This document shows, piece after piece, positions 53,815 to 56,001 of a stretch of DNA of 64,000 bases. The DNA comes from Blastocatellia bacterium (GTDB lineage Bacteria > Acidobacteriota > Blastocatellia > Chloracidobacteriales > Chloracidobacteriaceae). Position numbers and translations under genes: made by a program. The DNA lies in contig JAIBAN010000040.1 of NCBI GenBank assembly GCA_019695185.1, positions 1 to 64,000 of the forward strand. Direction: 5' to 3'. A model generated the notes under the pieces. The model ran no database searches and was not told where the DNA came from. It was given only the letters and a program-made list of their open reading frames with translations. Numbering within the stretch: the stretch's first letter is position 1; each line of letters starts with the position of its first letter.

Positions 53815-56001
53815 TTACGCCTGAGTCTGGTCTGATTCGAGTATGGCCAGAAATTCCACTTCGGTCAGGGTTGGAACGCCCAGTTTCTGGGCTTTTTCGA
53901 GTTTGGAGCCGGCTTCGGTTCCGACCACCACGTAATCGGTTTTTTTGCTCACACTGGAGGTCACCCGGCCACCACGGGCAGCGATTTTTTCACTGGCGGC
54001 GTCCCGTGACAGCGTGGCCAGCGTGCCCGTCAGGACAAACTGTTTCCCGGCAAAAATTTGCGGCACGTCCGACTGTGCCTGTTCGGATTGGGTCACGACA
54101 CCAACGGCTTTCAATTCTTCAACCAGAGCTTGATTGGCCGGGTAACGGAACCAGTCGGCGACTGATTGAGCCACTACGCCGCCGATTTCAAAGATATTGG
54201 AAAGCTCTTCGGGCGTGGCCGCAGCCAGTTTGTCAAGGTCGCCAAAATGCCCGGCCAGGACTTTCCCGGTATGTTCGCCCACGTGCCGGATGCCCAGGGC
54301 ATAAATCAGCTTGGCCAGCCCCGCCTGTTTGCTTTGTTCGATTTGCTCAATCAGATTGGAAGCCGATTTTTTGGCCATGCGGTCCAGTTCAGCCACCTGC
54401 CCGAGTTCCAGTCGGTACAAATCAGCCGGATTCCTGACCAGTCCTCGGTCCACCAGTTGGTCCACCAGGGCATCGCCCAACCCTTCGATTTTCATCATCC
54501 GGCGACCGGAAAAGTGCAAAATCCATTCCTTGATTTTTTTGGGACAGGTTTCGGAGGGACACCGCCAGGCAACTTCACCCGCCAGCCGTATCAAGTCCGT
54601 GCCACAGACTGGGCAGGTCGTGGGGAAAACCGTTTCCGGCAAGGCTCCATCCCGTTTTTCGAGCAGAACCCGAATCACCTGCGGAATGATTTCGCCGCTT
54701 TTTTCAATCACGACCATATCGCCGACGCGCACATCCAGCCGCCGAATCTGGTCTTCGTTGTGGAGTGAAGCCCGGCTGACGGTGGTGCCGGCCAGCAAAA
54801 CGGGTTCAAGTTCCGCCACGGGAGTGATGGTTCCGGTGCGTCCCACCTGCCACGTGATGCCGTTCAGCCGGGTAGTTGCCTGTCGGGCGGCAAACTTGTA
54901 GGCCACGGCCCAGCGCGGCGCTTTCGAAGTGGAACCGACTTCACCCTGCACTTTGGTCGAATTGACTTTGACCACCACGCCATCGGTTTCGTACTCCAGC
55001 TTTTCCCGTTCGGTTTCAATTTCGTTGCAATAAGCAATCACTTCTTCCAACGTCGCGCAGAGCCGGGTGCGCGGGTTGGTTTTGAATCCTGCCTGCCGCA
55101 GCCAGTCGAGCATTTCGCGTTGCGAGGCAAAGGGTTTGGAGCCTTCGGCAATCAGGTCATAACAGAAAATATCCAGCTTGCGTTCAGCCACAATCCGGGC
55201 GTCGAGTTGTTTCATGGTTCCCGAAGCCGCATTGCGGGGGTTGGCAAAGGGCATTTCGCCCCGTTCCTCGCGGGCCTGATTCAGTTCGTGAAAGACCGGG
55301 TTGGACATAAACACTTCGCCCCGGACTTCGAAAGACGAGGGTTCCGGGTTCAGGGTTCGGGGGGCGGGGTTTGAACTCAGTTGGGTTGGAGGTTCGTTGT
55401 CTGATTCAAAGAGTGATGGTTGAGAGGGCTGGGCCGGTGAATTATCACTTGTCTCGTTCACTGCGGCTGTTTCTGACCCTGAACCCTGAACCCTGAACCC
55501 TAAACCCTTGATTTTCAGCGGAATGCTCCGAATGGTCCGGACATTTTCGGTCACCACTTCGCCGGTGGTGCCGTCGCCACGGGTAACACCGCGCACCAAC
55601 ACGCCGTTTTCATAAATCAGGGAAATGCTGAGGCCGTCAATTTTGAGTTCGGCGACATATTCGAAAGGCTGGTCGGTCAAGCGGCGGCAGCGGGCGTCCC
55701 AATCCTGCAAATCCTGAATGGAATAGGTATTGTCGAGCGAAAGCATCGGGCGCTGGTGCCGCCAGGTTTCAAAGCCTTCGACCGGACGGCCCGACACCCG
55801 CTGGGTGGGGCTGTCAGGGGAAATCAGTTCCGGATGGGCAGTTTCGATGGCCTGCAACCGTTTCATCAACTGGTCATAATCATAATCGCTGATTTCCGGG
55901 GCACTGAGCACATAGTACCGTTCATCGTGATAGGCGATTTCTTCACGCAGGCGCAGGGCTTCGCGCTCTGCTTCGGCAAAAGAGAGTGAAATCTGTGACA
56001 T
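53815..56001 (-). CDS. ligA: NAD-dependent DNA ligase with in-frame repeat insertion
   Basis: 728 residues against about 670 in most LigA. Domain order is complete: Ia/adenylation with AMP-Lys120 (ELKIDG), RGEV motif at 227-230, OB fold, four-Cys zinc finger (CPVC ... CPSETC), helix-hairpin-helix, and C-terminal BRCT. From Lys120 to the RGEV Glu there are 109 residues; in E. coli LigA the equivalent distance (K115 to E173) is 58. The excess of about 51 lies at about 166-223 and is encoded by a GGGTTCA/TGAACCC inverted element. All motifs on both sides remain intact, so the enzyme should be active. Start ATG 56001, before MSQISLS; the frame is open 29 codons further. Confidence 0.96.
55339..55508. 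repeat. GGGTTCA inverted element inside the ligA coding region
   Basis: Left arm 55339-55373 (GGGTTCC, GGGTTCA, GGGTTCG, then decayed), right arm 55474-55508 (four or five GAACCCT units), spacer about 100 bp. It reads through without a stop in the ligA frame. Confidence 0.93.

Follow-up and report, generated by a model that had tools for sequence, protein, structure and literature searches.

Inverted heptamer arms bracket a conserved loop motif inside ligA of a Blastocatellia bacterium

Dispersed heptamer repeats were described by Rehm et al. (2015; PMC4692102), with convergent GGGAATC heptamers in Xanthomonas and G-rich heptamers in Nostoc; no association with mobile elements was reported. 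Rickettsia palindromic elements (RPEs) encode a conserved peptide, and the same element is found at many genes (PMC10969869). A Helicobacter pylori LigA peptide ending in SLF (residues 554-561) binds the beta clamp, for which the consensus sequences QL(S/D)LF and QxxL(x)F are quoted (PMC4976356). In M. tuberculosis, LigA and the clamp do not interact directly (PMC3335792).

The locus described here lies in a window of 64,000 nucleotides, the whole stretch of DNA that was analysed, from a Blastocatellia bacterium (G000; contig JAIBAN010000040.1). The original prediction placed an inverted GGGTTCA heptamer pair in frame inside ligA, and we located both arms there, with the frame open across them. 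The features are as follows.

53815-56001, minus strand: ligA, NAD-dependent DNA ligase, 728 aa, ATG start at 56001
55633-55644, minus strand: KIDG with the AMP-lysine K120 (residues 120-123)
55474-55509, minus strand: coding-strand 5' arm (GGGTTTA, GGGTTCA three times, GGGTCA; residues 166-176), in the stop-free orientation
55372-55473, minus strand: native spacer between the arms, assigned to the pre-existing loop
55408-55422, minus strand: QPSLF (residues 194-198), a motif conserved in the loop and similar to beta-clamp-binding motifs
55338-55371, minus strand: coding-strand 3' arm, degenerate TGAACCC (CCCCGAA CCCTGAA CCCGGAA CCC; residues 211-221)
55312-55323, minus strand: RGEV motif (residues 227-230)

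The protein scored over the cut-off for NCBIfam NF005932 (859 bits) and TIGR00575 (843 bits), and its best solved relative was E. coli LigA (PDB 2owo, E 8.5e-183). A full-length domain match together with the AMP-lysine and RGEV motifs identifies it as LigA, and it was the single full-length LigA match in the genome (8.33 Mb, 222 contigs). A longer in-frame start is present at 56088. The distance from K120 to E229 was 109 residues, exactly as had been given for the span equivalent to K115-E173. In the AlphaFold2 model (mean pLDDT 84), whose alignment held few long-loop sequences, the insert is predicted to form a disordered adenylation-domain loop, because residues 172-217 had pLDDT below 50 and confident strands flanked them on either side.

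Read on the plus strand, 55338-55371 gave GGGTTCC, GGGTTCA, and GGGTTCG and was degenerate after that, and 55474-55509 gave TGACCC, three perfect TGAACCC units, and TAAACCC. The two arms were mutually 92% complementary over 25 nt. When the loop codons were shuffled, the period-7 score was reached in 0 of 1000 shuffles and the inverted complementarity in 0 of 60. The coding-strand RNA fold had an energy of −62.6 kcal/mol (z −4.7), and no Rfam match was found for the element. By sequence, the GGGTTCA arrays including that of LigA have the four G-tracts that a quadruplex would need; TGAGAAT arrays were without them. A perfect 3' arm in the same phase would give an in-frame TGA exactly at the actual CGA of ligA, so the view that this arm is degenerate at the right places was borne out; its base changes avoid stops. 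The coding share of the arms was 11 + 11 residues, 22 in all, and the remainder of the longer loop was non-repeat. The element had been credited with adding about 51 residues, a figure that holds only against E. coli: the excess over the loop of the sister genome G003 was 19 residues.

The heptamer belongs to an abundant class of repeats. GGGTTCA occurred 33 times in the window (15.7 expected; 0 of 100 shuffles had as many). The (GGGTTCA)3 21-mer, with one mismatch allowed, gave 1,146 genome matches against 0 for the reversed control; G003 had 1,542 matches, and none were present in G001 or most other genomes. Array statistics were obtained for 0.99 Mb of the 8.33-Mb genome, in which 382 period-7 arrays were detected, and in 0.62 Mb the arrays of period 7 numbered 239 and those of period 8 only 10. 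Several heptamers were in use, some without GGG. An inverted partner was present within 250 bp for 242 of 376 testable arrays (64%), compared with 14 at random places. The pairs had a strong polarity with the G-rich arm first, 229:12 in G000 (242 pairs), 44:1 in G003, and 25:0 in G001, where the loci were picked for their arrays. Only 25 of the 382 arrays lay well inside genes, though 80% of the sequence was coding. Of 311 intergenic arrays, 28 lay between divergent genes, where 21% of the intergenic bases are found, and pairs were likewise under-represented there.

Several candidate explanations for these arrays were rejected. Fold-back copying of an arm was not borne out, as complementarity stopped at the arrays (outer flank score 6.34 for own versus 6.28 for control). 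Because complementarity is confined to the arrays and the arm lengths of pairs were barely correlated, the data lend no support to a simple snap-back origin; copying over a short length within the array could still have produced an arm. The reading of single arrays as Rho sites or terminators failed on their unbiased orientation to tandem genes (34 versus 44). An association of the REP/RAYT type was also discarded, with no heptamer arrays around the Y1_Tnp loci L237, L243, L238, and L244; Y1_Tnp genes gave 11 matches in G000 and are also present in relatives without GGGTTCA.

Some further repeat features were observed. Contigs ended inside long heptamer arrays in G003 (C11, L226, end 26606) and in G000 (C10 start), so the arrays limit assembly and the longest may be shortened. 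At window positions 28803-28886 a perfect 9-bp tandem array (GACTCCCAA, 9.3 copies) adjoins a GGGTTCA array. A dispersed repeat of another kind, containing CCGCCTTCAGGCGG and CCGCGTAAACGCGG palindromes, was present on many contigs, for example at L070:4156-4368 (G000 C7:24156-24368).

Among the pairs, 16 of 86 spacers had other copies in the genome sequence examined, which overturned the idea that all spacers are unique and led to a GGGTTCA-armed subfamily with a common core of about 60-72 bp. In an alignment of nine copies the flanks, compared by eye, differed from copy to copy, and the sequence model of the core gave 94 matches in G000, several tied at the top score, but no match in G003. 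G001 gave nine weak matches, which fell largely in the first half of the core and could be that genome's own repeats. Examples of the family are found at L197:8444-8515, L093:12610-12681, and L101:7714-7785. In two cases a single gene is flanked by a pair of whole elements, spacers included, that are 84-88% alike and inverted to each other. The window member, separate from the ligA feature, and these two cases are as follows.

5891-5997, no strand assigned: window member of the GGGTTCA-armed family (core 5907-5971; E 1.8e-4)
L086:5453-5613 and 6919-7081: inverted whole-element pair flanking one gene
L105:1280-1438 and 2600-2755: inverted whole-element pair flanking one gene

With 94 core matches in G000 and none in G003, a mobile or copied GGGTTCA-armed unit exists, and the core family is a recent, lineage-specific amplification. 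That elements of the GGGTTCA type disperse was thus correctly foreseen. The best evidence of movement had been seen in LigA; it lies in the core family, which is better mobility evidence than LigA, where no unit transposition is apparent. The ligA spacer (111 bp, 55363-55473) had no second copy across the 8.33-Mb genome and no match to the mobile GGGTTCA core, and a native motif lies between its arms.

The LigA loop was then compared among relatives. It had 59 residues in G000 and 6-11 in short-loop relatives, and heptamer-free loops of 53 (G014), 46 (G013), 43 (G011), 41 (G025), 40 (G003), 31 (G052), 29 (G033), and 28 (G016) residues were found. The loop of G014 was thus only six residues shorter than that of G000, without any heptamer. 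Insertions of equal length but free of repeats in relatives had been named in advance as refuting a heptamer insertion, and loops of 28-53 residues against 59 largely match that description. In these eight heptamer-free long loops there was no residual period-7 signal or inverted complementarity above codon shuffles.

The motif Q-x-x-L-F was present in 7 of 10 long LigA loops (0.06 expected from shuffles), including 6 of the 8 heptamer-free ones, and L-F in all 10 (1.5 expected). QPSLF of G000 is situated between the two heptamer arms, and a further relative, G034, carried QSPLF in its loop. The motif is not universal, since it was absent from the moderately long loops of G040, G028, and G043. 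Judged by its fit to the clamp consensus, the Q-x-[SP]-L-F peptide is probably a tether of LigA to the beta clamp. Spacer portions outside the motif were too variable to align, so that a part of the spacer may be of foreign origin.

In the LigA tree, G000 and G003 are sisters, the loop of G003 being heptamer-free, and G001 clusters with short-loop g3 genomes. Long loops did not form one clade and required at least four changes, so their ancestry involves gains or losses. The loop was altogether absent in chloracidobacterial g3 and many f4 genomes, and a scan of genome contigs returned mostly distant LigA proteins with short loops.

Heptamers were also observed in the LigA loop of other genera. 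In G001, GGAGAGT/CTCTCAA arms surround the same QPSLF, at places equivalent to those in G000 though the heptamers differ. The GGAGAGT-type heptamer recurs in the G001 genome, from which GGGTTCA is absent; the reversed-pattern control was uninformative for this heptamer, which is nearly identical read backwards. An AAATCTS array occupies the same loop in G055, matching the heptamers of that genome, and the loop is short in G055 neighbours. Lineage-matched heptamers thus occur in the LigA loop of three genera, and genome-specific arms repeatedly enter this permissive loop, which is predicted to be disordered.

A second in-gene inverted pair was found in an AddA-like UvrD/PD-(D/E)XK helicase-nuclease (G000 C200:40770-40905; L192:770-905). 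Its loop had 47 residues with the pair, against 38 in the heptamer-free G003 ortholog, and its 3' arm was likewise a stop-free variant (CCCGAAA). Heptamer arrays were also seen in frame in a CHAT-domain protein (L100:16524-16612) and, three times, in a polyketide synthase (L198:7805-9196).

From these results we consider it probable that the arms were added, in this lineage, around a native loop with its motif, and did not arrive as one unit. LigA of the lineage would already have had, by inheritance, a long and disordered loop on the surface of its adenylation domain, with Q-x-[SP]-L-F, the putative clamp tether. On the line leading to G000, two GGGTTCA arms would then have been gained, inverted and with the G-rich arm first, one in each linker beside the motif, and kept as about 22 extra linker residues. 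Their persistence would be owed to the disorder and length tolerance of the loop and to base changes that avoid stops in the 3' arm. The arms surround native sequence, and the loop was not imported whole, because the motif of heptamer-free relatives sits between them. We infer that the arms were added as a coupled pair, because inversion forces one stop-bearing arm, which would not be chosen by coding selection alone. Going further, one may tentatively suppose, though we find it rather doubtful, that a process acting in trans writes the two arms together, as an inverted pair of the genome's own heptamer with sharp ends and a fixed polarity, around DNA that was already in place.

Insertion of a palindromic mobile element with arms and core, entering ligA whole and in frame and tolerated there in the manner of an RPE, is what the dispersal of core-bearing GGGTTCA-armed elements in G000 but not in G003, several at the same top score, would lead one to expect, and arrays at the same ligA site in three genera agree with it. 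Such an insertion would leave native sequence outside the arms, not inside; instead, QPSLF of heptamer-free relatives lies inside them, the spacer has neither a core match nor a second genome copy, and the G014 loop reaches within six residues of this length without a heptamer. Unit insertion into ligA is largely refuted and we regard it as unlikely. An older event is about as improbable, in which the loop itself began as an element insertion deep in the class, whose middle became QPSLF, with arms that mostly decayed and were refreshed with the current heptamer in G000 and G001. Equivalent arm places in these two genomes despite different heptamers, and the complete lack of the loop in g3 and many f4 genomes, would follow from it, but the eight heptamer-free long loops retain no period-7 or inverted signal above codon shuffles, and several of those genomes have no GGGTTCA arrays.

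Local slippage, by which short GGGTT and AACCC seeds, present by chance in the two linkers, each expanded on their own, draws on a known bacterial process in heptamer slippage and accords with the barely correlated arm lengths of pairs. We give it little chance, since in all three genomes the heptamer of the loop is one that abounds in that genome, the stop-bearing orientation of the 3' arm is disfavoured under slippage plus coding selection, and pair polarity is fixed genome-wide. Selection for a functional nucleic-acid element (a terminator, Rho site, quadruplex, or ligA-regulating RNA hairpin) seems very improbable: the hairpin is strong, there are four or more GGG tracts, and pairs are depleted between divergent genes, but Rfam was negative, unpaired arrays showed no orientation preference to tandem genes (34 versus 44), and the feature is missing from ligA of the sister G003.

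The probable addition of arms around a native loop bears on how such repeats arise. Protein homology in a slowly evolving gene tells native bases apart, which intergenic repeats cannot do. Old sequence can come to lie between heptamer arms, and which heptamer is used depends on the genome, not the site. The origin of convergent heptamer pairs, for which no mechanism was described in Xanthomonas, thereby becomes testable. If arm writing is true, elements can form around native sequence, and LigA in two genera would record it within an essential gene, on either side of a putative clamp-binding motif. The loop, which is skipped by profile models, may also hold a clamp tether in acidobacterial LigA.

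Compared with the H. pylori LigA clamp peptide, the loop motif fits the consensus, a likeness of motif alone, but is placed in an adenylation-domain loop and not at residues 554-561. Like RPEs (PMC10969869), the LigA element is palindromic, about 150 bp long, in frame within a coding gene, and tolerated. The original prediction of an RPE-like insertion therefore stands for the open frame, the tolerance, and the avoidance of stops in the disfavoured arm, but not for membership of the RPEs: the spacer is native and unique, the motif is LigA's own and no same element with its peptide was found at many genes, the arms are built of tandem 7-base units, and arrays are markedly scarce within genes. 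The GGGTTCA-armed subfamily resembles MITE-type elements in its inverted ends and its dispersed copies sharing a core (94 matches), although the ends are tandem heptamers of variable length; the LigA element lacks the core and shares no internal sequence with dispersed copies. As with Borg tandem repeats (PMC9879509), lineage-specific repeats make in-frame disordered protein segments, but Borg in-gene units are multiples of three, whereas here the unit is 7 and the arrays form inverted pairs.

The closest resemblance was to the repeats of Rehm et al., which are likewise G-rich heptamers with few units per array, often in convergent close pairs, mostly intergenic and rare between divergent genes. 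Dispersed heptamer arrays, convergent close pairs, and an intergenic bias with few divergent locations were all found here. The present genome differs in having several heptamers, some without GGG, about 17 times as many arrays, a dispersing subfamily with a conserved core, and the in-frame LigA pair around a conserved motif. Convergent heptamer pairs are already known from Xanthomonas; the in-gene LigA pair is new.
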